A stretch of DNA of 64,000 bases from Taiwanofungus camphoratus (lineage: Eukaryota; Basidiomycota; Agaricomycetes; Polyporales; Taiwanofungaceae), in the NCBI GenBank assembly GCA_003999685.1, contig CP021224.1:992001-1056000 (forward strand). Reading direction: 5' to 3'. The notes beneath the pieces were generated by a model. It did no database searches and was not told the DNA's origin. It saw nothing but the letters and a program-made list of their open reading frames with translations. Positions within the stretch are counted from its first letter, which is position 1, and each line of letters starts with the position of its first letter. Both the position numbers and the translations under genes were made by a program. Positions 16,630 through 60,365 of this stretch are shown piece after piece.

Positions 16630-18856
<2,227 letters not shown>

Positions 18857-24932: not shown

Positions 24933-26486
24933 TTATGCATGGAAGAAATTGCGACTGACACCGCATATAGCACCATCCAGCTCGTCAGCTAGAATACGAC
25001 TAGTCTTCAGCAAAGATGTTGCTACGTTCATCCCTTGACAAGAGTTACATGGACTTGAACTGGCTCGGGAGGTTCTGCTAGCTACACTGCTGAACGTGGT
25101 GTCAAGTGCATTACCTGACAAGACTGCTGCACCTGAAGGGTTATCCATCACGTCTATCCTGACATTGTCCATGTAGGTAGTAAACCAACATGGCCACTGA
25201 CCACGGGCGCGGCAATGCGCGAATAAATCCTTCACCTTTGCATATATTCGATCGTAATCATGCGTCAGACGAAGAGCAACGTCGTTGCAATTTTGCCGGT
25301 ACTGCAAGAGACGATAGAATACTGCAGCAGAGACATCTTCCATCTCGGGACGATATCTCTTGTGGACAGGTTGTCCCAGAGTACGTCTTGCAGCTTCATC
25401 GGCATGCTCCTGCAGGCCAAAGCGACAAGCAATGAGATACACCTTAAGAGGATCCACGGCCGTCAAGCTCATTAATTCGGATTCCAGAAATTCTACGGCT
25501 TTCTTCATCTCGTACTTCCGTGAGGCTGCAAGCAGACTGGAGATATTCCGATTTGGACGTGGGAGATTTTCCATAGGATAACAGAGTCGCAGCAGCACCG
25601 AGAGTATCGAACTGTCTTCCGGCAGCGCGACGACTGGGTCCTCTCGACCTGACATGTCGGTTCTAACCGCGGATGGCATTTCTTGAGATACCAGTCTGTC
25701 GAGCACTGAAGACGCCAAGCTCAAGATGTTTCGGTGAACCCGAAAATCGACTCCATCTGAAGTGCGCAGTACGACATCTGCGTCTGGCAGATTGAAGGGG
25801 TAAGGAGCGTCCATTGCTGAGCAGGCCACGGGCCCGGTGTCTACCGTCTGGTTCATCCCACCAGTGTGGCAGAAGGAGAAACGACTACGAAACTTTCCGC
25901 CGGTTCCACAGTATCGCAAAGGTCGACAGTATTCGCCCGCCGTAGTGCCGTCCATCTCCGGGACGTACTTCGACTGGAGACTCTGTGAGAGGACTTCTTT
26001 CGCCGCCGCCAGAGCTATGTCCTCCAGCTTGTGCCGACACGCGATAGCATACACTCGAAGTGGTGCATTAGGTACTGACCCGATCAACCGTCCTTTCATG
26101 AGCTCTATTGCCTCTTCGATATCGTACTTGATGGCTGCCTCCAGGACGGGCTGCACCTCGCTGAGCTCATTCAAGGTGGGATCCCTGATCGGATAGCAAA
26201 GCCTTAGTAGATTGTGGAGGACGACGCTGTGCTCGGTGACACGAACAACGGGAAGATGCTGTACCGTATTGATGTTCGTCCCGTCTGAGATCTGTGCCAC
26301 AGAGGGCTGGGGAAGAGAGAACATGGCCTCAAAGAAGCTCGACGCCTCAGCCAGGATGGCTTTGTGCACACGGAATTCCACGTCATCCGACGAAACAAGA
26401 ATCACATCTGCGGTCGGCTTTGTGAAAGGATGGTGCGTGACAGAACGCATGGACTGCGGCGACAAGTCAGAATTGCTGTCTGACAT
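24933..26486 (-). CDS. Tandem BTB/POZ domain protein
   Basis: An intronless 517-residue frame. The first BTB domain (about residues 24-190) reads TADVILVSSDDVEFRVHKAI, LAEASSFFEAMFSLPQ, LHNLLRLCYP. The second (about 232-410) reads DADVVLRTSDGVDFRVHRNI, SLASSVLDRLV, LSVLLRLCYPMENLP. Each is followed by a helical region ending in a similar phrase (PLRVYAIACRHKLEDIALAA and PLKVYLIACRFGLQEHADEA), so the protein arose by internal duplication of a whole BTB unit. Such BTB proteins are numerous in agaricomycetes, and some serve as Cul3 adaptors; nothing here shows the partner. It ends near a MITE on one side, and the LINE nest begins about 250 bp upstream of its start. Confidence 0.8.
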   Translation of the reverse strand: MSDSNSDLSPQSMRSVTHHPFTKPTADVILVSSDDVEFRVHKAILAEASSFFEAMFSLPQPSVAQISDGTNINTVQHLPVVRVTEHSVVLHNLLRLCYPIRDPTLNELSEVQPVLEAAIKYDIEEAIELMKGRLIGSVPNAPLRVYAIACRHKLEDIALAAAKEVLSQSLQSKYVPEMDGTTAGEYCRPLRYCGTGGKFRSRFSFCHTGGMNQTVDTGPVACSAMDAPYPFNLPDADVVLRTSDGVDFRVHRNILSLASSVLDRLVSQEMPSAVRTDMSGREDPVVALPEDSSILSVLLRLCYPMENLPRPNRNISSLLAASRKYEMKKAVEFLESELMSLTAVDPLKVYLIACRFGLQEHADEAARRTLGQPVHKRYRPEMEDVSAAVFYRLLQYRQNCNDVALRLTHDYDRIYAKVKDLFAHCRARGQWPCWFTTYMDNVRIDVMDNPSGAAVLSGNALDTTFSSVASRTSRASSSPCNSCQGMNVATSLLKTSRILADELDGAICGVSRNFFHA

Positions 26487-26738
26487 TATGAGAGCTTGAA
26501 TGAATGGAACTAGAAATGAATCAGAAAAACGCCGCTCATAAGGATGACAAGCACCTGTGGTATATCTTCAGTGTGAAGGCGCACGAGTTTGTGAATAGTC
26601 TAGTCGAAACGTAGCGCTGCAGTGTGTAGTGCTTTTAGTAGGAGGTCAATACCACATTGACCAGGAGCCCGGCTGTACTAGGCACCCCTACTGCCAGGAT
26701 GCGGCGCAGCTACAGCCTCAAAACGTTACTTATGAACC

Positions 26739-27065: not shown

Positions 27066-30000
27066 TCAGTTATCATTTGGGTAGACGGGGGGGTCGTCGC
27101 GGATACTGGGTTCCGCTATCCCCTCGTCTATCCAATTATGGTACATTTCAAACACCTTTGTTTCGGCATCGTACCACTCACAAAAATCCCGGTATTTTCC
27201 ACCCAGGGCGGTGGTCATACCGGGGTCTAAATGTTGGTCCGCATGGAACCGCTGCCAGGCCGCTTGTCTTCCGACAGTGTGGCACATAAGACGGGCACGA
27301 GTGAATGTTCTCATGCACGCAGCTTCTGCTTCAAGCAGAGATTCTGCCAGAATCTCCGCCCAATCAAAGGTAGAGACCATCGGGTTGAGCCGATGGAACT
27401 CCATTATGTCATTCGGGGTCCATCCCCTTCAGGGGGCCCCATCAGAAGCGGATCATGCGGACCCTGTTGGCGCTTCGTCCTGATCCAGAATGGACAGTCA
27501 AAGAGCACATGTTCCCTAGTTTCCTCCGCTCCGCACAAGCAGAGATGAGGTCCTGGGATGTTGAACCTAGAGCGGTATTCACTGCCTGGGAAATGGTTGG
27601 TGAGCACGCGACATACGCATGCCACCTCCATGTTGGACTTGCCAGCTGCCTTCAAGACCCACGTGCCCTTGGCCGTGGTCCCGTGCAGCGGTAGGGCGTC
27701 CTTGGTTACTTTCCATAACCGGCGGCCGCGATAGCTGGGGTTATCGACTGGCGTCCCCCAGCGCTTTTTGACCCTTGCCTTGACGCGAGCAAGGGCCATT
27801 GATTGTGAGATGAATTCCGGTTGGGGATCATCCAATGCCTTCTTCGCGAGTTCGTTGACGAACTCGTTCTGAAAAATGCCTTTATGGGATGGGACCCAAA
27901 AAAGGACAATGCGTCGGCGTTCATCTGCATCGAGGAACACTCGTACGTGTTGAGAAGCCATGACCGCCGCCATCTGCAACGGTCCGACTTCCGGCTTGAA
28001 TATTCGGTCAAGTGCCGATTGGTTATCGGAACAGACTATGAGGGTGGTGATGTGGGCAGGGACATCACGGACCGCTTCACGCAGCCCGTGCGCCAGTGCC
28101 AGCATCTCCGCATCGAAGCTCTGGACCTTGCCGGCTCCAAACCTTCCATGGGCAACGTGGTCTTCCCCGTCAATGACGAGCCATGCGCTACCAGATCTCA
28201 CTGTTGGCGCATTTGCATACGACCCATCAGTGAACAACATTCGCCCTTCTGGCTGGGCCAACTGGCGCCGGAATTCTGGCCACCAGGTGAACTCCAACCA
28301 GTCGGCAAATTCAGGAGAGCGTTTGTTTGGACCCTTTCCGTCCAAGAACACCCGCTCAAAGCGATCAATGTACCGATCCACGACCCGATCACCGGGCCGC
28401 GCCTCCGGGTGGAGTGGTGCAAAGTCTTCTGATGACTGTCTCCCAATGCGATCTATGAACGTCATGGAGGTGACAGCCTGTTTTTTGCCACGGCGCGAAT
28501 TAAGTGGCCATGGCGCAGTGATATTGGTGATGTTGGTCGCCCAATAGGGTGGAAGGGCGGCCCTCATTGGGTGCCCTTCATGAACTCGCCGCGCTTGAAG
28601 CGCAGCTTTTTTCATGTACCGGTCGACCTGGATGTGGATGGGGACCAACCCACCCAACATCTCCATCACCCCGATCGGTGTGGTTTTAAAACAGCCGGTG
28701 ATCCACCTAGCTGCTCTCGACTGAGCGGTCTGCAATTCTTTTGCAGCCCATTTGAGGCCCTTCCACTGTGGGTTCCACCACAGTTGAGCGCCATATAGCA
28801 TCAACGGAACGACGTGCGCAATATAGAGCCGCCGTTTGTTAATGGGATGGAATCCGCGTGCCGAATTGCCAAGCATGCGAAGTGCATTACATGTGCTGGC
28901 CGCCTTATTAGCGTAGAACTGCACGTGTGCATGGAAGCTAAGCTTGGGGTCTAGAAAGAACCCAAGGTAGCGCATCGTGTCCTTTGCTCGCAAAGTGACG
29001 TCATGTCCATCAGTCCGGATGGTTAGATCTGGGCCAAGGGGTCAGGAAGTCGAATACCCCTTCTGACGCTTCCAGAAGTGCATCAACTCCAACTTGTCTC
29101 CTTCGACGCCTAAACCTAAACGGTTCAGATCGCCTACAAGATTGTGGAAGACATCCACCAGAATGGCATTGTTCTTCAGGACAAGGGCTTGCGGGCTGTC
29201 ATCTACAGCCTTCGGCGAAACCGCCATGATGAGACCGTCGTCCATGTAGAACTGAGTCCCGGTTCAGCCCGGTTGTACCAAATGGACTGGCGCCCACTTG
29301 TGTATGACCGGTGCAATGTAAACCCCAGATAGAATCGGAGATAAACTCGATCCTTGGCCGACTCCGACATCAAAGTCAGATGGATCAGTCAAGGTGCCAT
29401 TGAACAAGAATCGGGTTTTTCGATCAAGTAATTTGCCATGAAATTACAGAGCTTGCTATTGAAGCCCTGCTTTCGCATGATTCCTACCAGCGCATCATGG
29501 TTGATGGACGGGTAGAACTGTGACACATCGAGCAACAGCACCAATGGGATAAGGTTGCGCGCCCATGCCTCTTTGACATTGTGCACTAATTGAATGCCAG
29601 CGTCAGTGGTGCTATGCTGCATAGCCCCACCAAACTGACATGGGTGTAGGATTCCCCATTTTTGGGCATCCCACTGCATTCGTTTGGCAATGATCTTTTC
29701 AAACAGTTTGCCAAAACAATTCAGCAAGCAGATAGGCCTATAAGCCTTCGCTAGCGTATAGTCCGGTTTGTTCGGTTTGGGTAAAACCACCGTAACAGAC
29801 TGTTTGAAGACGCTCGGATAGACCTCGAAATCGAGGCAAGCGTTATAGTACGCGCGCAGCCATTGCCGCACGTGTATACCGAGATCGGTCTCGATGCCCT
29901 TCTCAGAGCGTTCGATCTGATCCACCATCCATTTAATCCACATCCAGTTCACGTGATCGGGACCGGGTGCAGACGTATTGCTAATGGATTTGAGATTCTT

Positions 30001-30717
30001 GCGAATCTCAAACTCACTAGTGTCTGGTAGAGTCAATTCCTCCCTTTGAGGAATTTCATCCACAAACGACAGATCCACCAGCCGTGGGTTGGTGGGCGTG
30101 AACTGAGCTTGGAAAGCACGACTGAGATCAGCCGCACTTTGAACTGGTGCACTGTCAGCTTGCCGCAGCTGAATAGTGGCCTCTTGCCGTCTCGGCTTTG
30201 TCCATGCAACAAAGTCGGAGATTAATTGGGGATTGGATTCATCCATGATCCGATCAAAGTGTGCACGCTTCGCCCACTTCGTGGCAAGGCGAAGTGTTGC
30301 ACGTTGTTTATGCCGTTCAGACCGAAGTTCGGCGGCAACATTGTATGCGTTTGCAGTGGCCTGAGCGCCAGGTCCCAACTGATGACGTATGTAGCGGTAC
30401 TGCCCAGATGCCGCACTAAGGCAGTGCTGGGTGTTCGCCAACTTAGTGGCCGCATGAGAGCATGTAGCATCCCACCACGACTTTGAACGTTTGGATGGAC
30501 GTTTTACTGCCGAAAATTCCATCCACATTCTTTGGAGATCTCGCTCGAGGCGGTCTCCCATTCGTTCAACGCCTTGAGCGCTGCTGAAGTGTGTAGGGTA
30601 ATCAGCGAACAGTTTCGCCGTTGCTGTCACAAATTGTTGAGCCGTGTCCCTGGTGCGAGGAATACCCCGCACCGGTTCTGGTTCAACCTCAATCGGCATC
30701 TCCCACCGCAGGACCGC
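27066..30717 (-). pseudogene. LINE reverse transcriptase, RNase H and C-terminal domain
   Basis: From 30717 leftwards: a helical linker (SKSWWDATCSHAATKLANTQ), then reverse transcriptase (SNTSAPGPDHVNWMWIKWM, SVTVVLPKPNKPDYTLAKAY, RPICLLNCFGKLFEKIIAKR, PLVLLLDVSQFYPSINHDAL). The active-site strand QFYMDDGLIM lies near 29240. The thumb and connection (RYLGFFLDPKLSFHAHVQF) lead to RNase H (LFTDGSYANA, FDAEMLALAHGL, VCSDNQSALDR, WVPSHKGIFQNEFVNELAKK). The residue where RNase H usually has its last Asp (NExxD) is Asn here. A further 112-codon frame (27404-27066) continues the C-terminus after a frame change. A TAATG overlaps the two frames, but a simple indel explains the join better. Confidence 0.8.
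30713..30717. repeat. Target-site duplication of LTR element A (left copy)
   Basis: ACCGC precedes the left LTR. CCGC follows the right LTR at 48318-48321, and the base before it, A48317, can be read as LTR end or as duplication, so the duplication is 4 or 5 bp. Removing A plus one copy restores the endonuclease-to-RT reading of the LINE (SDHAV then LRWEMPIE). Confidence 0.8.
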
Positions 30718-31643
30718 TGATGTGCACTACAGCACTCCAACCCCTACTGGGTACGACCTAGAGAAGCTGGAAGGCTATAGAACTAGTTAGTGTGGAGGGG
30801 AGAGTCAGCAGCAAAGGGTTCCCGATCTCAAATGGGTCAAGAGACGTCTACGAAGGTCTTCGACGACCCTCTACGTGTGTCGCGACTGCTCGACGTAGCT
30901 TCGATGCGCTACTATGCTGTACTATACTAGGGAGGGGCTTAAACGTGAGAACTTAGCTGATATACAACCCTTCAATGTGGCTCGAAGGCGGGCGTAAGAC
31001 TGAACGCAACTTCTTCGACGGATGTCGAAGACTGACGAGACGCAAGCCTTCAAGATACTGTAGAAGGCAGATAGTAGACGCAACTCTTCGAACGTAATCG
31101 AAGACGGAAGGACGCAGTAGAACGCAGTAGGTGGCTAAATCGAAGGTGCTCTTCTTGAGCTCTGCAGGATAGGGGAAAACTTCTCTCTTGTTCCGAGACA
31201 CCATACATCGCATTTATACTACTGTACTATAATGTAAGGCGCATCGGGAGTGGCATAGTACGAGTGGCATTCTGACTTCTTGCGTACTACGAATTATGGA
31301 GTGGCATGAAATATACTAAGACAAGACCTGGGGCCGTAGCGTTATCGAGTACATCGAGTGGCGCATCGTAGCAAATCGAGCGATATCGGAGTGGCGAGAC
31401 CGGTCACGTGTGAGGACATTGAGTGGCAACTGCGTGTGGCGTATTGTGCGTAGAGGGACCGGTACACCGGAACATCGGACTGGAACTGGCGGAGTGGCGG
31501 TGGCGTGATTCGAGGCTATCGGAAAGTCCCGTGGTGGCTTTTCGGGCTGTATCGGACATGTCGAGTGGCGTCGAAGCCATGACTAAGGTCCTAGGGTCGA
31601 GTGAGGGCGCTCCGCGGGGCCTAGAAGGGCCTGGCGCCTATCA
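30718..31643 (-). repeat. LTR of Gypsy element A, 3' copy
   Basis: 926 bp, beginning TGATGTGCAC and ending GCGCCTATCA (canonical TG...CA). By hand count it differs from the other copy (47395-48317, 923 bp) at three substitutions and one 3 bp gap. A purine-rich tract (in minus sense AAAAAGGAGGAGA, 31644-31656) lies just inside, so this is the 3' LTR of a minus-strand element. Confidence 0.9.
31248..31569. repeat. Eight scattered GAGTGGC motifs in LTR A
   Basis: GAGTGGC occurs eight times in about 320 bp of the LTR (also in the 5' copy), each followed by A or G and preceded by variable sequence. The spacing is irregular, so it is not a simple tandem repeat. It may be a binding-site cluster for the element's promoter; this is inference. 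Confidence 0.6.
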
Positions 31644-31882
31644 TCTCCTCCTTTTTGGAATTTGGACCGTCCTCGGTCCACACGTGACGCCTAGAAGCTT
31701 GGTGGATGTGACTGGATCGAAGCTTTTATGGGGACCTGCGCGGTTCCGACCTTCTCGTGACTCGTGCCGATCACGTGCCGTCGAGGAGGATTTAAGCTGG
31801 AGCGACTTAGCTGTTTTTCTTCGCTCGTCGTTCCACATTCGACACGCTCCCCTTCTTCTACATCGGCCTCCTCTTCCTTACA

Positions 31883-32029
31883 ATGCCTTCTCGTTCCGCT
31901 ACCCCCGCTGTCGTCACTTTGCGCGTTCAGCGCGCTCGGGACCGTCTGATCGCGGTGCTCGATACACCCTGTGCCGACACCGTCCCCGAGGAGGTCGAAG
32001 CTTGGGCGCAGGACGTTGTGGATTTGCTG
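31883..32029 (+). CDS. First exon of an antisense gene in element A
   Basis: On the plus strand, opposite to gag-pol, an ATG opens a 49-codon frame (MPSRSATPAVVTLRVQRARD, then DTVPEEVEAWAQDVVDLL) ending exactly at a GTACGT donor (32030-32035). The upstream 230 bp have an AT-rich TTTAAG and long CT-rich stretches, like fungal core promoters. Position, strand, exon length and donor match exon 1 of the antisense gene in element B (33811-33945), though the sequence has diverged. Element B begins directly after the donor, so only this exon is present here. Confidence 0.55.
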
Positions 32030-32035
32030 GTACGT

Positions 32036-33643
32036 TGATACGACCTAGGGGACCCTGGTACCTAGGTAGTGCTCCGCAACGTGGCTGTGGGGTAGTGTGA
32101 TAACTGTGAGGGCGTGAGGATAGGAGCTACAACCTGTATGATACCGGGAAACCTGTATGTCTTGTTTTTGTAAGTAGGGGAGTAAGGGGTCAAGGGTCCT
32201 GCACAACAGGATTTTGTTCCTAAGTGCTATACTATCCCTAAGGCCTTGCGAGGCCCTTCGAAGTATGCGAAGTTCTTCGAGATTCTGCGAAGTCCTTCGA
32301 AGTTTTAGCTAAGTCGCACGAGCTGACTTCGTAGATGCTGCGAAGTCCTTTTAGCTAGAGTTAGCTAAAGGGCGTAAGTTTTAGAGGTTTGTTAGAGCGA
32401 GGTGGGTGAGGTTTGGCTAGCGTAGGAGACCTGTAGGAGAGGTCGGAGAGTTCGAGGGCGTAGGGAGATGTACTATAGCCTGAAACTAAGGCTATGGGAG
32501 AGTCGTAGGGCTATTCGTAGGACGTAGGGATGACACAACGTGAGCCTAAGGGTATAACTAAGGCGGAGGCCCACCGGATAGGTGCTATAAGAGGTGCTGA
32601 AGGGCGTGAAGTCACGGCGACTTCGTAGATCGTAGTGCGTAGTTCGGGAAGCGTAGACGTGGTTCGTAGATATATCGCGAGCGCAGACGTAGTTCAAAGG
32701 TACTGAAACGGAGCTGGGGTGGAGACTTGGGGACCTTAGGACCGTTCCTAAGGTTGTACTCGCAGCACTTTCCTGAGATCGGAGCTACAGGGGAACTAGT
32801 ATTCCAACGAGAGAAGCGTGCACTGAGGGGTCTCTCTCTTACATAGTAAACTACCTCTGACTAAATAGGGGAACGTGAGGTGAACTAATCTTGCGCGAAG
32901 CAATCCTTACGAGTCCGAAATGTGTACTAAAGCGCATGGACTCCGAAGTGAACACGAGGAGGATAGGAACTAATTAGGAACTGAAACAGGGGAACTACGT
33001 ACGGTAGAAAGGTGATCAAGTTCATTCACGAGGGCGGGATGACTATCCGAGAGCAGCCATGCGCCGTGATCACCTATCTTAGTGGGCTAAGAGCGCACGA
33101 AGTTCTTAGCAGCGGGACTTGGCCTAATCAGGGCAGGAGGTGTCCTAACTGGGTGGAGGGTCATATGGGTACGCCCTAGGATGACCTTATGGCATAGGAT
33201 CGAGACCCATGGGGGTGCACAAGGCTTCCTAAGTCCAACTTCCGGAACTTCGGACCGTTTCGGAGCCTATCGGAGGTAGCTGCAATCACAAGAGCTAGGA
33301 GAGACTTAGCTAAGACTTCTTAGCTAAGCCCGGGATGAGTGACGTAGTAGATAGGACCTAGATCCAATGGAACAGCATGGGAGGGCCGGCAGTGTCCGAT
33401 AGTGGACTTAGCAGGAGTTAGGGACTTCGCATCTAGCATTCGAAATCTCGTAGCACCTCGTGTGACTTCGCAAGACTTCGTAGGGTGTTAGGAGGGTTTA
33501 GGAAGGAGAGGGGGTGTTAGGAATATTATAGGAACCTATCCCTCCTGTCGTAGGCTGTAAGAGAGTCTTAGAGTGGTTGGTTGGGGGATTAGAAAGCTCC
33601 TAATAATCGCGATTCGGGGCCCAGGAGGCTACGGGACTCATCA
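32036..33643 (-). repeat. LTR of Gypsy element B, 3' copy
   Basis: 1608 bp, TGATACGACC to GGGACTCATCA. By hand count it differs from 42506-44104 at about 22 substitutions and two gaps. The differences lie in the first 400 and last 260 bases, with some 950 bp in the middle identical. A minus-sense purine tract (AGGGAGGAGG) lies just inside at 33644-33653. Confidence 0.9.
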
Positions 33644-33810
33644 CCTCCTCCCTATTGAAATCCTGACTGTCCTCAGTCAGTGTGCGCGACCGTGGGAATT
33701 TGTAGCCTATCGCATCCGATCTGCGAAGTGGGCGATATTCTGATAGAAGCTAATCGTGGGTGCCTCTTATCTTTTTCTCCTCCTCCCCTTTTGCCTTTCC
33801 CTTCCCCATC

Positions 33811-35188
33811 ATGTTCAACAATATGGACTCTGATGGTGTTGGCCTAGCTCACAGCGATGTCCTGGCGCTCCTCGATTCTCGTCCAGAGGGCGTAGCGGAG
33901 GCCGAAGATTACTTGCGGTGGGCGAGGAACTTAGGACGTCGTGTGGTACGTACCCTCCTTGATCGCTCGTTACATCGTCTTCACTGCGTTATAGGGTAAC
34001 TGGTGGGTCCTGTCCCAGGCTTCGAACGCTCCTGCCGATCCTACCTTAGAGGCCGCCATCATCGAAGGTTTGACAGCGATCCTCCCTCTCGCGGACTCGT
34101 CGTGGATCTTGTGGGCCCGCACCGGCTTTCCTCAGTTCGCCGCTATGCTTCAAGAGCGAGACGCACAGCGCGAACTCGCCCACGCGACCGAACGACTTCG
34201 TGTGGAGGCGGTCGAGCGCACTGCGCTTGAACGCGCTGCCCAACTTGCGGCTTCGTCTTCTGCTCCTTCGCCGGCCCCTAGTCGTACCTCATCGCGTACT
34301 CGTCGTCCCTCAGCTCGGGCCAAGGCAGCAGCTTCTACTCGCGCGGCTTCCCAGGCCAGCTCGATCATGGCCTCCGTTTCTAGCGGCCAAGTCGGTGAAC
34401 TCACCTTGTCCACGAGTTCGGGTGTCTTCATAGGGGTCCCTCCTACTCAGGGGAAGGATGCTGCGAAGGCGAAGGCTCCTCCGACGCCCGAAGCCCTGGC
34501 TAACATGGCAAAGGCGGCAGAGCATCGGCGAACCCATGCGAAGGTGAGTGCATGTCTTTTTCGTGACTGTTCGCGGCTTATCATCGCTACCTAGTGCAAT
34601 CGCTGCAGCACCTACACCACAGACTTCGAGTGCGAACTCCCTGTGGGTGCCGTGAAGTGCGGCAAGTGTCTGCGAGAGTCGCAGAGGTGTTATTGGGGTG
34701 GATTCTCCGTAGACGGTAAGGAGCGCGGAGTGCGCGTCTCGAAGCGCGGTAGGGCTTCTCGTGCCCTCGTTATCGCGTCATTGCTGATGTTAGGACGTCC
34801 CTTAGCTGCGGGCCAACCTCCTCAGGTGTCCCCGCCTCGCGCCCGCGAGTCCAAGAAGGCGAAGTCGACCCCTGCGCCTACGATGTCGCTCGAGGCCTCG
34901 CTGGCCCTTAACGGCGCCGAATACTTGGACGGCCTTACCCCTGCGCATCAAGCCATTGTCGAAGGCCTCTGGTATGACTGCGCGATGGCCGAGAGTCGTG
35001 CGATGCGTCTCGAAGACTACATCTCGGGGCTCTATCGTGCCGAAACCGCCCTAACCGGTCGTACGCCTGCGCCGCTCGACTTGAGCTCTCTCCCCCTTCC
35101 TCGCCGTCGCGTCACCGCCTCCTCTACTGATCCTGGTCCCTCCGGTGAGTCTGAGCAGGATGAGGAAGATGCCGAGGCCGAGGTTTAG
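33811..35188 (+). CDS. Antisense Zn2Cys6-like gene inside element B
   Basis: The plus strand, opposite to gag-pol, has three coding blocks bounded by GT and AG: 33811-33945, 33995-34543 and 34595-35188, together 425 residues in one frame. Exon 1 (MFNNMDSDGVGLAHSDVLAL) is acidic. Exon 2 has NWWVLSQASNAPADPTLEAA, a helical Glu/Arg segment and a Ser/Ala/Arg-rich basic linker. Exon 3 opens with a six-cysteine cluster spaced C-x2-C-x8-C-x8-C-x2-C-x6-C (CNRC, FEC, KCGKC, QRCYW), close to the Zn2Cys6 binuclear cluster of fungal transcription factors. A helical region (LTPAHQAIVEGLWYDCAMAE) and a very acidic tail (ESEQDEEDAEAEV) follow. Upstream is a CT-rich promoter-like stretch. The gene lies between the integrase end and the 3' LTR. 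Function is unknown; a regulator of the element or a captured host factor are both possible. Confidence 0.7.
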
Positions 35189-35722
35189 AAGGTGGGGGGG
35201 GTTCGTAGTTCGTCGTCTCGCCCATTCCGTATCCGTCGCACCAATGTGCTGTATTCTTTCTCGTTGCGCGTCCCTTTGCTAGGGACCTTTTCCAATATGT
35301 GTACAGTAGTCTGAATATAGCGGACGCAAACGTCGTCCTTGTGAAAAAGTTCCCAAGTGCGTGAAGTAACCAAACAACACAGCGATGAATTAGAAGACTT
35401 AGGGGGATAAAATGCGCTCATTTAGGCTCAGTAAATCATCATGGCCTTGAAAGGCATAAGGCCCCTCGCGCAATCTTCGCTCCGCTCGGCGTTTTAGGAG
35501 CCTTTAGAACGATATCGCGACTTCGTGAGTTGAATCACTATAGTAAAAAGTCGGAGATGTTGTAAGTAAAAATTCGTAGACATTCGGGACTTCATAGCTG
35601 TCAAAACTGAGTGGGGGCTTGTTGGGGAATGTAAAACATGACCAAAGGGTAAGCGAAAAGTAAAATGGACGTAGCGTAATCTTAGCTAAAGTCGGGGTAT
35701 CGTCGATTGCTCCTCTGATTCT
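35189..35722. other. Spacer between antisense gene and integrase of element B
   Basis: About 530 bp where the two opposite transcription units converge. No coding potential was recognised. Confidence 0.5.
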
Positions 35723-37339
35723 TTAGTGAGCTTCAGATGGACTAGAGCCGGACTTAGGAGAGTAGGGATACGATCCTAGTTCTTCGTCATCGCCTTGGGT
35801 GGTAGTCAGCTCTAATTCGCGAAGTCGCTCCGTCGACACGTCCAAAAGTTCAGTAGGAAGTTCGAGAGCTTTTCGTGCTAAGTAGGGGATGACTCGGAAG
35901 GCTGCCGTAGGCCTGTCGAGTACCGAACCATCCAATTCGCATAGGATATAAGCACCACCTTTGTTCCTAGATACTACGAGTACTGGGCCGAGGTAGCAAG
36001 GTCGCATCTTCCGATTTAGGGACTTTTCTATCTGCGTGTTGCGAATTAGTACTAAATCGCCCTTTTCGAAGTTGAAATCGTGGATGGAGTGCTTATGCTT
36101 TTCTTCGAATCGCAGAGCAGCTTGTCTTCGCGCTTCGTAGACCTTCGAATGTAGTTCCGCTACCTGAGTCACCCGCTTTTGCAATGCGATAGCTCGACGT
36201 GCAATAAGATCGGTCGTGGATAGCATAGAAGATGGAGGAGGAAGGATATAGGTGGCCTCTATGACGTCCAAAGGGATAACAGGGTGGGTGCCAGTGACCG
36301 CGAAATAGGGCGAACATCCCATGCGCTTTCGAGTCGTGATCCTTTCGGACCAGAAGACTGAGTACGTTGCCTGAGACCATTTAGACTCTTCGCCATCCAC
36401 GGCCTTGAATAGAGCCTGCCTAACATCGAAGTGAGGCCTCTCCACCAGTCCGTTGGCACGCGAATTGTATCCGCTAATTCGGATATGTCGTAGCTGGTAC
36501 TTCTTCGCTATGTAGTTCGTAGCTTTTACGAAGGGAGCACCGTTGTCCGTGACTATCTCCGATAGCGCGCCCCACCTACAGACCAAGTCTTCGAAGAGCC
36601 ATTCTGCCAAAGCTTTAGCCGTCTCCTTGCGAAGCATCCGAAATTCGGGGTACTGGGTTAGAGAACACCGGCCTTGCACCAAGTACCTAAATCCGTTAGA
36701 AGGGGGCATATGCATGGTATCTATATGAACCTTTGCGAAGATCGGAGCGGGCGTAGCGACCGTAGGAGGGATTAGGATCTGCTGCACTTGGCGAATCTGG
36801 CATAGGTGGCAGCTTCGAACATACCAGGCAATGTCGATATGATGGTAGGGCCACCAAAACCGCTCCGAAATCAGCACCTTCGTAGCGTGTATTCCTCAAT
36901 GCGCGACTGCATCGTGACATTCTCGGAGGATTCGTAGACGATCTGCCTGCTTTACAACTACTTTGTGAGCTCCTTGTGGATCTTTGTGCCATAGTATGTC
37001 CTCATCGAGGAAGAATAGAAGACAGTATTTTACGAAACCTTCGTATTCTGAATCCGATAGGTTGGCAGGTCTCGCGAGGCTTCGTAGGAATTTTGCTACT
37101 AAGTCAAGTCTTGCGTCAGCTTCCTTGGCCATTTCGGATCTTGGGACGCTATCGTAGCTCTCCTCCTCCCTATTGAAACCTTGGCTGTCCTCAGCCAACT
37201 CGGAGGCGAAGGTTGGAGCTATCGGAGGTGTGGGGGTTGTGATAGGAATGTTAGAGGCGAATTCGTAAGGGAATAGGGTAGAAACCGATGGTATAGGATG
37301 GGACGGGGGGGCTTGGATGTGATGTAGAAACGAGTGCAT
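35723..37339 (-). CDS. Element B integrase region (fossil)
   Basis: It shows the His/Cys zinc region (ECHDAVAH then CHLCQIRQV), the catalytic core (VHIDTMHMP, EIVTDNGAPFVKA, SGYNSRANGLVERPHFDVRQ) with the order of acidic residues expected of a DDE integrase, and a GPY/F-like C-terminal module (MRPCYLGPVLVVSRNKGGAY). No chromodomain is visible. The family inserts the cDNA copy into host chromosomes. Confidence 0.8.
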
Positions 37340-37402
37340 TTTGTCTATCCAGTCTTCAAAGTCTTCTTCACCACTCTCTTCTTGATCTCCTGGCTGGGGG
37401 GT

Positions 37403-39577
37403 TCATCTTGATAGTCCGTCTGGTCCATGCATTGTACCTGGTACATGTACTAGGGTGAAATGGAATGTTAGAATCGATACGATCCAGCGATTTATACTCG
37501 CGCTGGGTGCGATGTCCGGATTTTGCAACATCCCTTTGATATAGCGTGCGTCAACCTCTACTATAAGGTTCCTAACTCCGATTAGGTAGATTCGTAGTAC
37601 GCGAAGTGCTCGAAACAATCCGTAGATCTCTAACTTCGGTTGCGAGAACCTCCGCTCACGATCATTTAGGGTGATGGATCTGAAACGATTGTAGAATCGG
37701 ACTTTAGGGTTGTCCTCATCGCATTGGCAAAGGTGATAGCCAACTGCAATATAGGAGGTGTCAACCGCTAAGATCATGGGCGCACCTGACGAATAGTTAA
37801 TGGATCGGAGAGCTGGAGAGGACAGCAAAGCATCCTTAAGGTCCTCCTGCGCTGCGATTTGCGCTGGACCAAATTCGAAGGGTACTGCCTTTCGCGTTAG
37901 GCGTACTAAGGCATCTGCACGATGTGCAAAGTTTCGGATGAAGATACGGACTACTCCAATGGTTCCTAAAAAGGCTCGAACGTCAGATAGGGTCGCACAA
38001 GGTCCCCAGTTGCGTATGGCTGCAACACGAGACTCGTCCGGTAGGCGACCTTCTAGAGTACACCGATGCCCTACAACGGTGATTTCGCGGGCAATTAGAA
38101 TGCTTTTAACTCCAGAAAAGGTACCTCCTGCATAGCGCATGCGTGTGACTATCCTATTGAGGTTCGTAAAATGTTCCCAAACAAACTTTCGAATGCCTGG
38201 GTTCTCCGAAATAGGTACGAGATCGTACGAACTTTCAGGGCCTTTGACCGGAACATCGTCGATATAGGGAACCGTTAGGTGAGGAATTTTGGGCTGTAGG
38301 ATGTGCGTAACATCATCGTGGAAGATAGGGACCGAGTTGGTCCATCCCATAGGTAGAGTGACCAATCTCATAGCTCCGAAAGGTGTTTGAAATGTCGTAA
38401 GATCGCGCGAAGTCTCCGCTATCAAGCGTTCATTATAGCCTACATATAGATCCAACATAGCACCACAAGGTCGTCCTCCAAACTGTTCTGCGAGGTGTTC
38501 GGGAGTCGGGGGAACGCCTGAGTGTTGAATCGTGACAGCGTTTAGGGGTTCCAGACTATGTACAAGACGTAGGGACTTTCCGTCTTTCTTCACCACACAA
38601 AACCATCGTGAACGATAGGAAGAATTTGAAGGTTCGTAGACCCCCGCTGCGATCTTCTTTTTGATTATTGCGCACACTTCGTTGTAGATTCCGGGTGGGA
38701 TAGGAATGTTCTTTTGTACCCATGGCGTGTGCGGTACTACCGGAAAGTCGATAGGAGGGAAGTACTCCGGCTTGAAGCACCCTCTTTCGGAGTCATTCCA
38801 AGCGAACGCATCAGCATGTAGGGTCATAAAATGATGTAGGAGGTCCCTCTCTGCTGGTTGTAGGAAGTCTCCACTGTGTAACTTGTCCGTGAGATCGTGC
38901 CGTTCTTGCGTATATCGCGAAGTAGATTCGAAAGGTGGTGGAGTCGGTGATAGGGTAGGCATCGTCGCTAAAGGGTCGCCTTTAATTTCACGAATGATTC
39001 GGAATCGTTCGTCCAATGCTCCCAGAATAGGGTGAGTCTTCAGCGCTATGGGCTTGTACTTTTTTTTCGATGCTGCAAATGTAGGAATAGGGGAAGAATC
39101 TGACAACTTAGGAAGGGATACCATCGGATTAGGAGCAAGGGAAGGTCTTCGGGCTGACTTCGTGACCTTCGTAGCGTTCCTGTGACCTGGAATGGGGATA
39201 GAGAATATGTCTTTAGAGGCGGAAAGCGAAAGCATAGGGAGAGAACTCGGATTATCGTGTGAAAAGGAGGGAGCCTCGGGCGGTGTTGCTGCTGCTAGAA
39301 AGCCAGATAGCCACCTAGTATGATCCGCAGGACCTTCCGAGACTTTTGAAGTTTCGCTAAAATAGAGAGACTGCAGATAGCTAGACACAGAGTTAGAGAC
39401 TGATAGATAGAGCGCAGGAACAGAATTGTTATCTGCTGTATTTACAGTGGCGAAAGACATGATTTTAGGGATATCAGATTCATACTCAACGACCAGGGCG
39501 ACCTCTCCTTGATTTCTCAAATCCTCGAAATCTAAAAACCCGATCGCAAATGATTCGAAGAGTTCGCGTGGGGGCAA
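37403..39577 (-). CDS. Element B reverse transcriptase and RNase H (fossil)
   Basis: Gypsy-type reverse transcriptase with RSRWFCVVKKDGKSLRLVHS, MRLVTLPMGWTNSVPIFHDD and the active-site strand TVPYIDDVPVKGP. The tether and RNase H follow (PMILAVDTSYIAVGYHLCQC, RRFSQPKLEIYGLFRALRVL). The N-terminal 200 residues are a Ser/Pro-rich linker. It copies the element RNA into DNA in the particle. Confidence 0.8.
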   Translation of the reverse strand: MPPRELFESFAIGFLDFEDLRNQGEVALVVEYESDIPKIMSFATVNTADNNSVPALYLSVSNSVSSYLQSLYFSETSKVSEGPADHTRWLSGFLAAATPPEAPSFSHDNPSSLPMLSLSASKDIFSIPIPGHRNATKVTKSARRPSLAPNPMVSLPKLSDSSPIPTFAASKKKYKPIALKTHPILGALDERFRIIREIKGDPLATMPTLSPTPPPFESTSRYTQERHDLTDKLHSGDFLQPAERDLLHHFMTLHADAFAWNDSERGCFKPEYFPPIDFPVVPHTPWVQKNIPIPPGIYNEVCAIIKKKIAAGVYEPSNSSYRSRWFCVVKKDGKSLRLVHSLEPLNAVTIQHSGVPPTPEHLAEQFGGRPCGAMLDLYVGYNERLIAETSRDLTTFQTPFGAMRLVTLPMGWTNSVPIFHDDVTHILQPKIPHLTVPYIDDVPVKGPESSYDLVPISENPGIRKFVWEHFTNLNRIVTRMRYAGGTFSGVKSILIAREITVVGHRCTLEGRLPDESRVAAIRNWGPCATLSDVRAFLGTIGVVRIFIRNFAHRADALVRLTRKAVPFEFGPAQIAAQEDLKDALLSSPALRSINYSSGAPMILAVDTSYIAVGYHLCQCDEDNPKVRFYNRFRSITLNDRERRFSQPKLEIYGLFRALRVLRIYLIGVRNLIVEVDARYIKGMLQNPDIAPSASINRWIVSILTFHFTLVHVPGTMHGPDGLSR

Positions 39578-40380
39578 CTATGATGATGGGCTGGTAAGAA
39601 CTTTTGACGTCCTCTAGGCATCGTAGGGATGGTCGCGACTTCGCTCGTGTTCGGGCATACGATCGTGATGGTCTGCTCCTCGTTTCCGAAGTTCTTAACC
39701 ACACTCTCAGTTACCACATCGAAGGGACGGCCTAGAAGGATATCATAGGAGGGATTGCGTATGACGTGCATCTGTAGGTACAACACGATGTCGCCTACTT
39801 GGAACGAGACATTTCGAACCAGTTCTAAGGAACGGTCAATACTGCCATTAGCAGACTGCATATTTAGCTGCACGGAAGGGTCGTAGATTAGTCCTAAGGC
39901 ATGACAGACTTGCTCTGACATCGCAACCACTTGTGACCCAGGGTCCACGATGCATTCGATTCGCTCTTTGTTGTCGATTAGGGCTTCGATAGAACGGATA
40001 GAGTTCGAGTCGCGGGCTACTATAATTTCGGAGGGTTCTTCCTTTCCGGGTACGTGTCGTAAGTACGTTTCGTAGGGGTCTGGAATTATGGTCGAACCAG
40101 GGACAAGGGGTTCACCGTGGCACGATAGTTCGGAGGTTGCTAGCGTCGTTTTAGAAGCGAGATCGTCTGAGAGTTCCGTAATTTGAGCCATATGAGTAGC
40201 CTTAGGATCCATAGGCACACGTTTAGGGGTGATAGCTTCGCGATATCGCGCACGAACATCCGGGGATATAGATAGTAGCTCCTCGGGCGTTAGTGTAACC
40301 ACGGGTGTTCTCATAGATCGCGTGAATATTTCCTCTGTAAGCTTCTCCTGATGAACCGGTGTGATCGTCTTATAGGCCAT
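39532..40380 (-). CDS. Element B aspartic protease region (fossil)
   Basis: A retropepsin-like segment with IECIVDPGSQVVAMSEQVCH, where the catalytic DPGS takes the place of the usual D-S/T-G, and a second strand YDILLGRPFDVV. Element A has the same motif (IECIVDPGSQIVAMSEEVC), so the variant is shared by this lineage. Confidence 0.7.
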   Translation of the reverse strand: MAYKTITPVHQEKLTEEIFTRSMRTPVVTLTPEELLSISPDVRARYREAITPKRVPMDPKATHMAQITELSDDLASKTTLATSELSCHGEPLVPGSTIIPDPYETYLRHVPGKEEPSEIIVARDSNSIRSIEALIDNKERIECIVDPGSQVVAMSEQVCHALGLIYDPSVQLNMQSANGSIDRSLELVRNVSFQVGDIVLYLQMHVIRNPSYDILLGRPFDVVTESVVKNFGNEEQTITIVCPNTSEVATIPTMPRGRQKFLPAHHHSCPHANSSNHLRSGF

Positions 40381-40629
40381 GTCCTTGCCTTTGTCTGCTG
40401 TAGGCTTCGGAGCTGCTGCGAAATTTCGAAGATTCGGAGGTGCGTAAGTAGCATCTCGAGCATTAGCGAAAGGATGTACTGGTGGAGCGGGCAGTGGAAT
40501 GGCTGCCTGTGATGCTGGTTGGGCTGGTACGTTAGGTGTAGACGAGACATGCTCCGATGAGTTCGTGTGTGGGTTGGACGCATTCGCAGGCTTCGGAGGT
40601 GAAGGCGCTGAATTAGAAGGATAATTGGA

Positions 40630-42465
40630 TCACCTTAGAATGGTAGGAGGGGTCTGGTTCTGCGCCTCCGCCACTGGGGCATCTTGGTTAGCAGGGGGAT
40701 CCACTACTGGATGCTGAGCGCGTCCTATCGGAGGTGCGTTGGCTAAGGGTGGGTTTCTAGGATCAGACTGCACGTTAGGAGCACCCTGCCTTCTGCGCTG
40801 GGGTACTTCCACACCATCGAAGACTTCGCGACGTCTCCGAAGTTGGTAAATCTCGTGTTCTAAAGCGGCTATACGATCCTCGGCGGATAGTGAGAATGCG
40901 GGCACATTTAGGCGATTGTCGATTTCGAATAGGAGCTGTGGGGAGGAATTCGTGCCATTTCGTCGATGGTATTCATAAAGCCTATCGCGAATCGTACGTC
41001 CTGGGATCGTTCTGGGTACGAAATTTCCATTTGGCAGTACTATCTTTCCATCTGGGTTGCGCTTGCACTTGCCATCCTTGATGTCTTGCTCAATGTGCTT
41101 GCAACACCTAGTGCAGCAGTCCAAGTCCCCGCAATAGTGACAGTACTGGCCTTCCACATGAGTGTGCTCGCCGCGCGAGCTGTCCAATCAAGGGGGTCGC
41201 TGGTTCGCAAGAACAGGAGCTAGCGCACTGGTTACGGACTTCATGAGGATCTCTGCGAACGTCTGTAGATCCTCTATCTTTAGTGATGAGCCCCCCACGG
41301 GCACGGCAGTGGTCGAAGCAGTTACAGTCGTAGCAGAGGTAAGAGTCGTAGAAGTACCAAGGAGTACGAACTTTGCTGCGCTATGTAGCTGGTCCAAGGT
41401 GTAGGGATCATCGGGTAAGTGATCAGGGAACTTTAGCTGTAACCTAGTAGACACGCGAGCCCATAGCGAAGGCTGGAAGGCCCTCGCGAAAGCACGGCTT
41501 TGCTCAATAGTAGACAACCTATTTTTCAAAATTAGGTACTTCGTGATGGCATAAAACTCACGATAGAAGCTTCCTAAGTCTGCCGCATTGTTGATTCCAA
41601 TTCTAGCACGTTCTCCTATCAACTGATCCAAGTCGGACATAGACCACATTCTATCATCCTCTGTGCCTGGGTAGAGGCTTCTAATCTCCTTCTTGAAGTC
41701 TTCGTAGGTCTTCGTGACATCGGAACACTCAGGGAGGGACTCCCATAGGTCCGAAACATCGATAGGAGGGTAGCGAGTAGTCCAGTGTTTCTTCGTCGCC
41801 TCATCCGCTATCTGGCAGCGGACAAAAAGCGACTCTAAGTCCTGGAAATACCTTTGGATGGTCCTAGGCTGGTCAGGATCGAAGGTGGGGGATGTACGAT
41901 CTCCTCGAGGTGGCATGAGTGGAGGTGCGTTCATGGTTGACACAGAAATAGGATATAGGGGATTAGCTAAAATGGGTGCAGTCAAAGATGGGTTCGATGC
42001 TGAGTTGATGCTAGCTGAAGAGGATGGGGTCGTAGAAGCGTCGGAAAGAGTAATAGAAGGAATCGGAGGGGAACGCGAAGCTGATGGGAGCGTAGAGGAT
42101 AGCTGAGGGGATTCCGGTAAATGGACTAAGATAGGGTCAGACGCTGAAGAAGGACCGCTTTCTTTGGAGGTGTTAGGAAGCTCAGGGGACGTGGACTGAG
42201 GTTCGAAGTCCTCAATTGGTGAGTCTTCGGACGTGGTAAGCATGTCTAGAGACCCTTCGAAAAGAGCCTCGAAGTCGGGGGTCGATTCGGAAGATTTGAG
42301 TGTAGAAATGATATCGGAGGGGATAGTCGTAGATGTTCGCGAAGAGGTGCTTCGTGGAAGGCCTGCTTGAGTATAGTAACGATAGCCGACCTGAAAGAAC
42401 TCGGATAGTAACTGATCGCTGTTTCTCGGAGAGGACTGGTTAGACGTAGGATGATCTGAAGGCAA
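40630..42465 (-). CDS. Element B gag and zinc knuckle (fossil)
   Basis: A Ser/Thr/Pro-rich N-terminal part, then a capsid-like helical region (RTIQRYFQDLESLFVRCQIA, SLYPGTEDDRMWSMSDLDQL, RSRAFARAFQPSLWARV-type segment) and a Cys/His-rich nucleocapsid segment (CHYCGDLDCCTRCCKH). It is parallel to the corresponding part of element A. Confidence 0.75.
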
Positions 42466-42505
42466 TGAAATCTTGACTGCTCCCCCTCGCGGTGGGCTCC
42501 AGAAA

Positions 42506-44104
42506 TGATACGACCTAGGGGACCCTGGTACCTAGGTAGTGCTCCGCAACGTGGCTGTGGGGTAACTGTGAGGGTGTGCGGGTAGGAGCTACAACCTGTA
42601 TGATACCGGGAAACCTGTATGTCTTGTTTTTGTAAGTGGGGGAGTAAGGGGTCAAGGGTCCTGCACAACAGGATCTTGTTCCTAAGTGCTATACTATCCC
42701 TAAGGCCTTGCGAGGCCCTCCGAAGTACGCAGAGTTCTTCGAGATTCTGCAAAGTCCTTCGAAGTTTTAGCTAAATCGCACGAGCTGACTTCGTAGGTGC
42801 TGCGAAGTCCTTTTAGCTAGAGTTAGCTAAAGGGCGTAAGGCTTAGAGGTTTGTTAGAGCGAGGTGGGTGAGGTTTGGCTAGCGTAGGAGACCTGTAGGA
42901 GAGGTCAGAGAGTTCGAGGGCGTAGGGAGATGTACTATAGCCTGAAACTAAGGCTATGGGAGAGTCGTAGGGCTATTCGTAGGACGTAGGGATGACACAA
43001 CGTGAGCCTAAGGGTATAACTAAGGCGGAGGCCCACCGGATAGGTGCTATAAGAGGTGCTGAAGGGCGTGAAGTCACGGCGACTTCGTAGATCGTAGTGC
43101 GTAGTTCGGGAAGCGTAGACGTGGTTCGTAGATATATCGCGAGCGCAGACGTAGTTCAAAGGTACTGAAACGGAGCTGGGGTGGAGACTTGGGGACCTTA
43201 GGACCGTTCCTAAGGTTGTACTCGCAGCACTTTCCTGAGATCGGAGCTACAGGGGAACTAGTATTCCAACGAGAGAAGCGTGCACTGAGGGGTCTCTCTC
43301 TTACATAGTAAACTACCTCTGACTAAATAGGGGAACGTGAGGTGAACTAATCTTGCGCGAAGCAATCCTTACGAGTCCGAAATGTGTACTAAAGCGCATG
43401 GACTCCGAAGTGAACACGAGGAGGATAGGAACTAATTAGGAACTGAAACAGGGGAACTACGTACGGTAGAAAGGTGATCAAGTTCATTCACGAGGGCGGG
43501 ATGACTATCCGAGAGCAGCCATGCGCCGTGATCACCTATCTTAGTGGGCTAAGAGCGCACGAAGTTCTTAGCAGCGGGACTTGGCCTAATCAGGGCAGGA
43601 GGTGTCCTAACTGGGTGGAGGGTCATATGGGTACGCCCTAGGATGACCTTATGGCATAGGATCGAGACCCATGGGGGTGCACAAGGCTTCCTAAGTCCAA
43701 CTTCCGGAACTTCGGACCGTTTCGGAGCCTATCGGAGGTAGCTGCAATCACAAGAGCTAGGAGAGACTTAGCTAAGACTTCTTAGCTAAGCCCGGGATGA
43801 GTGACGTAGTAGATAGGACCTAGATCCAATGGAACAGTATGGGAGGACCGGCAGTGTCCGATAATGGACTTAGCAGGAGTTAGGGACTTCGCGTCTAGCA
43901 TTCGAAATCTCGTAGCACCTCGTGTGACTTCGCCAGACTTCGTAGGGTGTTAGGAGGGTTTAGGAAGGAGAGGGGGTGTTAGGAATATTATAGGAACCTA
44001 TCCCTCCTGTCGTAGGCTGTAAGAGAGTCTTAGAGTGGTCAGTTGGGGGATTAGAAAGCTCCTAAAATCGCGATTCGGGGCCCAGGAGGCTACGGGACTC
44101 ATCA
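42506..44104 (-). repeat. LTR of Gypsy element B, 5' copy
   Basis: 1599 bp, partner of 32036-33643. The primer-binding site (42483-42501) lies four bases inside it, which makes this the 5' LTR of a minus-strand element. Confidence 0.9.
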
Positions 44105-47100: not shown

Positions 47101-47340
47101 ATCGGGGGATGAGAGGTTGACTTCTGGCGTAGATAGCCCTAGAAGCTCGGGAGACGAAGTACGTTCATCGGAGGTTGAAGGAAACTCTAGCTCGTGATCT
47201 ACGAGGTCTTCTTCCTCGTGGTCGAAGGTGTCAGGAGTTGTGGAAAGGGTGGTAGAACTGTTGTTGAGGTTTTCGCTTGCGCTACGACTGGCAGCCTCAC
47301 GCGCTTGTGAGCGGGTGAATACTGGAGACGTCTTCGGCAA
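44105..47340 (-). CDS. Element A gag, protease and start of pol (fossil)
   Basis: Gag begins MPKTSPVFTRSQAREAASRS. The capsid-like region (LRRYFQDIEVLFTQCRIVDD, LYPGTDDTRKWSLADMDQLI) is followed by a zinc knuckle (CHFCGDQNHSIRSCPH), a protease (IECIVDPGSQIVAMSEEVC, AAYDILLG) and the linker leading towards RT (KTHPVLGAVPKQFRIIRDIK). It aligns throughout with element B but differs at many residues, so A and B are related families rather than copies of one. Confidence 0.75.
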
Positions 47341-47394
47341 ATCTGAAAGCGGCGGATTCCTTGCCTGAAATCCCCTCGCGGTGGGCTCCAGAAA

Positions 47395-48317
47395 TGATGT
47401 GCACTACAGCACTCCAACCCCTACTGGGTACGACCTAGAGAAGCTGGAAGGCTATAGAACTTAGTGTGGAGGGGAGAGTCAGCAGCAAAGGGTTCCCGAT
47501 CTCAAATGGGTCAAGAGACGTCTACGAAGGTCTTCGACGACCCTCTACGTGTGTCGCGACTGCTCGACGTAGCTTCGATGCGCTACTATGCTGTACTATA
47601 CTAGGGAGGGGCTTAAACGTGAGAACTTAGCTGATATACAACCCTTCAATGTGGCTCGAAGGCGGGCGTAAGACTGAACGCAACTTCTTCGACGGATGTC
47701 GAAGACTGACGAGACGCAAGCCTTCAAGATACTGTAGAAGGCAGATAGTAGACGCAACTCTTCGAACGTAATCGAAGACGGAAGGACGCAGTAGAACGCA
47801 GTAGGTGGCTAAATCGAAGGTGCTCTTCTTGAGCTCTGCAGGATAGGGGAAAACTTCTCTCTTGTTCCGAGACACCATACATCGCATTTATACTACTGTA
47901 CTATAATGTAAGGCGCATCGGGAGTGGCATAGTACGAGTGGCATTCTGACTTCTTGCGTACTACGAATTATGGAGTGGCATGAAATATACTAAGACAAGA
48001 CCTGGGGCCGTAGCGTTATCGAGTACATCGAGTGGCGCATCGTAGCAAATCGAGCGATATCGGAGTGGCGAGACCGGTCACGTGTGAGGACATTGAGTGG
48101 CAACTGCGTGTGGCGTATTGTGCGTAGAGGGACCGGTACACCGGAACATCGGACTGGAACTGGCGGAGTGGCGGTGGCGTGATTCGAGGCTATCGGAGAG
48201 TCCCGCGGTGGCTTTTCGGGCTGTATCGGACATGTCGAGTGGCGTCGAAGCCATGACTAAGGTCCTAGGGTCGAGTGAGGGCGCTTCGCGGGGCCTAGAA
48301 GGGCCTGGCGCCTATCA
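47395..48317 (-). repeat. LTR of Gypsy element A, 5' copy
   Basis: 923 bp, TGATGTGCAC to GCGCCTATCA, nearly identical to 30718-31643. The primer-binding site (47372-47390) is next to it, and CCGC of the target duplication follows. Confidence 0.9.
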
Positions 48318-49632: not shown

Positions 49633-49688
49633 GCTGGGCACGGGCGCTAAATCGAGATGGTGGTGGTACTGGTTCAAGAAGCGGCTCG

Positions 49689-49701
49689 CGATACAGATAT
49701 C
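49689..49701. repeat. Right target-site duplication of the LINE
   Basis: CGATACAGATATC, identical to 26739-26751. The LINE 5' end is at 49688. Confidence 0.85.
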
Positions 49702-49928
49702 ACGAGGCACGAAGGTTGAAGGAAGTATCTAATCTGCCTGAGGAGACTGAACCCGCGCGACATGGTCAGTGGCGCTGCTGCGTGTTACTGACTGCCAGTT
49801 GAGCGTGTCCGAGAAAGTGCTACAACGACTATGACAAGCGAAAGAGGGGGTGGTAAACAAAACATTCGTGGTTATGTAACGAGTGGCAATTGAGATGAGA
49901 TGGATGCGAGTCATACAGAAACAATAAA

Positions 49929-60038: not shown

Positions 60039-60365
60039 GGTATTGCTGGACGCGAAGCTCGAGAACGGGCACGAGGCAGCTGCCACAGGAGCTCGGGGAG
60101 GAGTGCAAATATGTACATACATCGAGTCCATTGTCCGCTAGGCCGCTGGCTGAGTCTGGCTCCATGTCTACGTCCGGGCGGGGTAACCTGCTGCTAGTTG
60201 TATACATCCCGCAGTCTTATCGGTAGTCGCATTCCATATCTGGAGAACTAGTGAGATTTTTATCGTACCGGCGCAGCATACGTTTGATAGTGGTCTGTAA
60301 GAACTCAGTGACGCTAAGGGTTCTGAGTACTTTCAACGCATCCTGAACGCCTCACTCGCTTTCAA

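Follow-up and report, generated by a model that had tools for sequence, protein, structure and literature searches.

We found that a stretch on the plus strand of the window (the whole stretch of DNA analysed, 64 kb long), from position 33811 to 35188, is probably a real protein-coding gene, carried as an antisense accessory gene by a Gypsy retrotransposon lineage and likely to encode a nuclear regulator. We read it as coding because its three-exon frame is open beyond what chance would give, displays codon periodicity and contains a motif of six clustered cysteines. We attribute it to the Gypsy lineage because a coding antisense exon 1 with an identical donor and phase occupies the corresponding position in a diverged element (A), which encloses the carrier element (B); a dyad shared by the two elements with three compensated changes, and precedents at this location in plants and fungi, argue for the same attribution.

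An antisense frame in a defective Gypsy-type element

The carrier element B has the following features:

32036-44104, minus strand: element B, a Gypsy-type LTR retrotransposon
42506-44104, minus strand: 5' LTR of B
42483-42501, minus strand: primer binding site (PBS) of B, TGGAGCCCACCGCGAGGGG, with TGG at its start, common to A (there from 47372)
35723-42504, minus strand: gag-pol of B, with a gag/NC/PR frame (39532-42504) and an RT-RNaseH/integrase frame (35723-39577)
33644-33657, minus strand: polypurine tract (PPT) of B, CAATAGGGAGGAGG on the minus strand, adjoining the 3' LTR
32036-33643, minus strand: 3' LTR of B

B shows what defines a Ty3/Gypsy element: an LTR pair (98.07% identical over 1,608 columns), a PBS, a PPT, and the order protease-RT/RNase H-integrase, with Pfam matches to Asp protease, RT_RNaseH and Integrase_H2C2 in this succession. 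At the cut applied, Pfam recognised neither the RT core nor the integrase core, and the RT fold was taken from the frame; nor did Pfam match a chromodomain in B. This copy is defective, as its gag-pol is interrupted by in-frame TGA stops at four points (41188, 40630, 37403 and 36896) and changes frame from protease to RT. At 39532-39577 the protease and RT reading frames overlap out of register, which may reflect a programmed frameshift. The premature gag-pol stops are TGA in five cases out of five, four in B and one in A (44803), as would be expected from decay of CGA codons at CpG sites.

The antisense gene lies in an interval of about 2.1 kb that stretches from the end of the integrase frame (35723) to the PPT (33644), with the PPT and 3' LTR on one side and the integrase frame on the other:

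33811-33945, plus strand: exon 1, 45 codons, ending in phase 0
33946-34018, plus strand: predicted intron 1, GTACGT...CCCAG, 73 nt (49 nt with the alternative acceptor at 33994)
34019-34543, plus strand: exon 2, coding for a helical/coiled-coil part and then a basic Ser/Ala-rich linker
34544-34594, plus strand: predicted intron 2, GTGAGT ... CTACCTAG, ending in CTAG, 51 nt
34595-35188, plus strand: exon 3, opening at the first cysteine of the six-cysteine cluster and continuing to an acidic tail and the stop codon

The ATG at 33811 and the stop codon ending at 35188 are exact in the sequence. A preliminary description of this DNA had proposed three GT-AG-bounded antisense blocks in a single frame between integrase and 3' LTR, and our analysis confirms them, with 425 or 417 codons: intron 1 has two usable acceptors, of which 33994 leads to the 425-aa product of that description and 34018 to a 417-aa form. 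Both predicted introns are in phase 0 and have consensus donors, GTACGT for intron 1 and GTGAGT for intron 2, and exons 2 and 3 share one genomic frame, where the sole stop between them is the TAG that closes intron 2. The gene is thus an additional ORF antisense to gag-pol, located between pol and the 3' LTR (aORF-3R). Its GC content is 62%, versus 48-51% for the gag-pol of B.

Coding signal of the antisense frame

We searched for the best ATG-initiated spliced frame, allowing no intron, one or two, each 45-90 nt long. In 33644-35722 this reaches 425 codons on the plus strand and 109 on the minus strand. The observed value was attained by none of 20,000 dinucleotide shuffles of the same region (longest spliced frame 378), nor by any of 20,000 shuffles of the GC-rich gene body alone (maximum 397). 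When 232 other window-strand stretches of equal length, with starts every 500 bases, were scored, those with higher values were coding regions (among them gag, RT, the LINE and host genes), an assignment of our own made among the top 15 listed. A simpler ORF test gave a less clear-cut result: 132 of 2,000 shuffles equalled the longest stop-free single frame (199), and none of 2,000 equalled the sum of two adjacent frames (396; shuffle maximum 387).

Base composition by codon position is strongly uneven in the joined coding sequence (chi-square 58, p 9e-11), in exon 2 (p 4e-7) and in exon 3 (p 3e-4), exon 1 alone not being significant (p 0.11). No such periodicity is present outside the gene, be it in the leader (p 0.67), in the stretch following the stop (p 0.98) or in the LTR of B (p 0.74). 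With a codon model trained on exon 3, exon 2 outscores every one of 5,000 shuffles, and the reciprocal model is equalled on exon 3 by one shuffle in 5,000; each fits the other exon in the annotated frame only. Under a model trained on exons 2 and 3 together, exon 1 beats 4,889 shuffles, 111 of the 5,000 being as good. The intactness of the frame was also considered as a sign of selection and rejected: the antisense gene has only four CGA codons, so that its survival of CpG decay means little.

The encoded protein and its cysteine cluster

Six of the seven cysteines of the protein fall within 32 residues (permutation p 5e-5), at positions 221, 224, 233, 242, 245 and 252 of the 417-aa form, and their spacing, C-x2-C-x8-C-x8-C-x2-C-x6-C, is exactly as first described. 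The basic Ser/Ala-rich linker and acidic tail of that description are equally borne out, residues 126-215 having a net charge of +8 and the last 22 residues (396-417) one of -9; a further basic stretch covers residues 261-330 (+9). A single-sequence AlphaFold2 model is poor overall (mean pLDDT 48.3, pTM 0.27) and contains one confident helix at about residues 83-124 (pLDDT up to 93), the remainder being poorly modelled.

The label "Zn2Cys6-like" does not hold in the strict sense. The Zn2Cys6 pattern (PROSITE PS00463) is C-x2-C-x6-C-x5-12-C-x2-C-x6-8-C, which the observed C-x2-C-x8-C does not fit, with a second spacing of eight in place of the canonical six, and we therefore reject a canonical Zn2Cys6 domain. 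The preliminary description had suggested a profile comparison of the cysteine region with Zn2Cys6 families; when run, Pfam Zn_clus (PF00172) gave no match to the antisense protein at E up to 10, and matched the positive control Gal4 at 8.9e-13. The protein resembles Zn2Cys6 factors such as Gal4 in its six clustered cysteines, with C-x2-C in both halves, in its basic and acidic stretches and in its coiled coil. It differs from Gal4-type factors not only in spacing and in Zn_clus result, but also in having no basic loop of the C-x2-C-R-x-R-K type, and its coiled coil precedes the cysteine cluster, whereas that of Gal4-type factors follows it.

No relative of the antisense protein was found in Pfam, PHROGs or PDB, weak whole-protein matches (a SusD-like Pfam family at E 0.09; PDB entries at E 1.9 and 2.7) being discarded as noise, and Pfam scans reaching E 10 did not detect the TRP28 domain (PF04195). 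In viral and prokaryotic contigs, we found no relatives of the antisense protein or of the integrase, RT and protease; these collections contain no fungal genomes, so that the lack of relatives says little.

A matching antisense exon in a second element

B lies within another Gypsy element:

30718-48317, minus strand: element A, the outer Gypsy element enclosing B
47395-48317, minus strand: 5' LTR of A
44105-47394, minus strand: gag-protease remnant of A and start of its RT frame
31883-32029, plus strand: antisense exon 1 of A, with ATG at 31883 and 49 open codons
30718-31643, minus strand: 3' LTR of A

The LTRs of A are 99.35% identical, and in the aligned parts its proteins share 69% (protease) and 56% (gag) identity with those of B. 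A has no RT, RNase H or integrase, and beside its 3' LTR only 392 bases of it are left (31644-32035), PPT included. What resembles the start of B's antisense gene is found here, at the same place in a distantly related element.

Antisense exon 1 of A ends at a phase-0 donor, GTACGT (32030-32035), precisely where B begins and cuts it. Exon 1 of B has the same donor hexamer and the same phase 0, with 45 codons compared to 49 in A. The exon of A is periodic (p 0.005), is equalled under the B codon model by two of 5,000 shuffles, and, of its six frames, scores positive under the model of B exons 2 and 3 in the annotated one only. Both antisense genes are poor in third-position A (46 of 418 codons in B, 2 of 49 in exon 1 of A), unlike the sense genes (554 of 2,259 in gag-pol of B, 215 of 864 in gag of A; p 1e-10 for B, 2e-4 for A), which speaks for the two belonging together. 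At the protein level, however, the two exons are weakly similar (shuffle p 0.054 for a local score of 27), and the counts of identical bases at codon positions 1, 2 and 3 (14, 18 and 15 of 32) draw no coding pattern. Short of proof, these exons are probably homologous and fast-diverging. A retains only exon 1 of the gene, and the cysteine cluster is known from B alone.

A dyad beside the polypurine tract

Both elements carry a dyad close to the 3' LTR:

33663-33680: dyad/hairpin of B, CTGACTG-TCCT-CAGTCAG, 20 nt inside the 3' LTR border
31663-31680: dyad/hairpin of A, TGGACCG-TCCT-CGGTCCA, 20 nt inside the 3' LTR border

Each spans 18 nt and forms a perfect 7-bp stem with the loop TCCT; the stems have three differences, all three compensated on the opposite arm. 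The 64-kb window contains 17 perfect dyads of such shape. Folding energies are mildly better than those of shuffles overall (z -1.2 to -2.5), the dyad of B folded alone giving z -1.8 on the minus strand and -2.5 on the plus strand. Judged from the sequences, the symmetric change would fit equally well an RNA hairpin by the PPT and a palindromic protein site.

We also considered the dyad as an LTR operator and rejected it, since a search of all four LTRs, allowing up to four mismatches, returned no copy; the idea of LTR autoregulation accordingly gains no support. Elsewhere, the dyad of B is matched twice with four mismatches, at 18770 and, within pol, at 37181. Inside their LTRs, A and B have further perfect dyads of 8-11 bp (32733-32754, 33305-33328 and 31012-31031, plus partners in the other LTRs), which differ in sequence from the PPT-side dyad.

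Known antisense genes in retroelements

The antisense gene brtn, from Boty-like Gypsy elements in Botrytis, is said to have been described by Zhao et al. in 2011. Published passages place brtn, as an extra antisense gene, between pol and the 3' LTR of these elements (PMC7264820, PMC8365987, PMC4227169, PMC5987419), and section 5 of one of them reports it there in Boty of Botrytis/Sclerotinia (PMC7264820), which contradicts the earlier statement that fungal Gypsy elements normally carry nothing at this place. Boty is thus like B a fungal Gypsy element with an additional antisense gene from pol to 3' LTR, brtn being compared by description only; unlike B, Boty has, in these accounts, an ascomycete host and a chromodomain in pol.

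In plants, nearly all Retand elements carry antisense TRP28 ORFs, whose product is proposed to be a nucleic-acid-binding regulatory protein of unknown function, according to parts of PMC11963269. These are also Gypsy elements with a long region between pol and 3' LTR and an ORF antisense to gag-pol within it, but they belong to plants, encode the TRP28 domain (PF04195), and have a region of 2.9-6.6 kb there compared to about 2.1 kb in B (PMC11963269, same parts). The word "intron" does not appear in the text of that paper on Retand. The maize element Grande has at the same antisense place gene23, for which excerpts of PMC7264820 report its own promoter just upstream and a nuclear product, making the same arrangement plausible for B; here too, the comparison is with a plant and by description only.

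The main text of a fungal survey, "LTR Retrotransposons in Fungi" (PMC3248453), contains neither the word antisense nor the word zinc, and in the open-access literature searched we found no report that a Gypsy element of a basidiomycete carries an antisense gene with a zinc cluster or with introns. An antisense gene at this location is therefore of a known kind, fungi included, and it is the cysteine cluster, the introns and the dyad that are undescribed in that literature. Outside these elements, HBZ of HTLV-1 is a bZIP protein. The background section of PMC11963269 presents it as a nuclear regulator encoded in antisense and expressed from the retroelement's 3' end; compared by description only, it is like the gene of B in orientation and position, and differs in being retroviral.

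Alternative explanations

We consider unlikely, but worth weighing, that B captured a host gene, or part of one, in antisense orientation as a passenger with no role in the element, its introns being kept via element RNA of the opposite sense. Capture is discussed as an origin of antisense ORFs in passages of PMC7264820, and would agree with the host-like introns, with the GC contrast to gag-pol of B (62% versus 48-51%) and with codon use. Third-position A is low in the antisense gene, and none of 5,000 shuffles fits as well as the antisense gene a host codon model taken from the BTB gene, i.e. the frame at 24933-26567, where two BTB/POZ stretches are found. However, A, for all its divergence (gag 56%, protease 69%), has an antisense exon 1 with the same place, codon bias, donor and phase, which a one-off capture by B alone would not produce.

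A very unlikely reading, in our opinion, is that the protein is incidental and that it is the antisense RNA which is active, for instance through pairing with genomic RNA and feeding RNA silencing. Parts of PMC7264820 report that antisense transcription itself has been proposed as a regulator for plant elements, and the hairpin common to A and B could belong to either RNA, but a role limited to RNA leaves the strong periodicity and the open spliced frame unexplained.

We regard as highly improbable that the antisense ORFs of A and B are independent, with place, donor and phase shared by coincidence, the gene of B being borne by the element but not ancestral to the lineage. The weak similarity of the first exons and their flat codon-position identities would fit independence, as would GTACGT being a common type of fungal donor; against it stand the same codon bias and the same order PPT-dyad-ATG-donor in the two elements.

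Finally, although high GC (62%) lengthens random frames and exon 1 alone is not significantly periodic, we reject and give practically no credence to a chance open frame or to the shadow of a minus-strand gene such as an env-like sense ORF, given the shuffles (none of 20,000, including those of the GC-rich body alone), the periodicity, the one-exon codon models that fit the other exon in the annotated frame only, and a best minus-strand frame of 109 codons.

A possible mechanism and its significance

If the antisense gene is indeed an accessory gene of the lineage, its transcription would run toward pol, starting at a promoter located either within the 3' LTR or within the 167 nt that separate LTR and ATG. 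Its introns would survive retrotransposition, since it is RNA of the other strand that is packaged, and there they would never be spliced. The product may dimerise through the coiled coil at about residues 83-124, fold its cysteine cluster on zinc, enter the nucleus by means of the basic linker, and there bind nucleic acid and tune the expression of the element itself. The LTR-proximal dyad of A and B is a candidate target; alternatively, this dyad may represent a structure in the element RNA by the PPT.

A more specific version, which we hold to be rather unlikely, would be an antisense regulator, spliced and with a zinc cluster of a new type, that predates the split of A and B and whose evolution was tied to that of a palindromic site next to the PPT. 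The candidate half-sites would be TGGACCG in A and CTGACTG in B, and the candidate site would lie where the antisense leader and the 3' end of the genomic RNA coincide. If true, protein and site would form a pair private to each family, making the system the retrotransposon equivalent of HBZ or of an autoregulator like those of phages.

Should the product be a regulator, plant and fungal retroelements and retroviruses would have separately reached antisense control genes at the same position. A fungal version with introns, a compact cysteine cluster and a candidate target site would make the question of such genes testable in genetically tractable, genome-rich organisms, and puts to the test a simple rule, namely that introns in retrotransposon genes are tolerated on the unpackaged strand only.

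Nesting history and neighbouring genes

The LTRs of the inner element B differ at 22 of 1,599 positions, versus 3 of 923 for those of the outer element A (p 0.011). B has unmatched flanks (ACGT and ACGG) with no target duplication, and A is devoid of everything from the start of RT to antisense intron 1. Two insertions of B into one A, followed by recombination between the B copies, would best explain these data, and under this scenario the LTR divergence of B is no safe clock. A is itself inserted in a LINE, whose endonuclease (48559-49728) and RT/RNase H frame (29392-30726) were recognised by Pfam matches and whose frames are rejoined by removing one copy of the flanking 4-nt repeat CCGC.

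Further along the window, 54.6-57.0 kb holds a host C2H2 zinc-finger gene with introns that matches Zap1_zf1, a possible zinc-response regulator of a type in keeping with a fungal host. A candidate second copy of the antisense gene at 55.2-56.3 kb (weak collinear tblastn hits, E 0.9 and 1.7) was rejected as unrelated, as it falls inside this gene. At 60327-60968 we found a gene for OHCU decarboxylase, of the urate pathway (E 1e-21).
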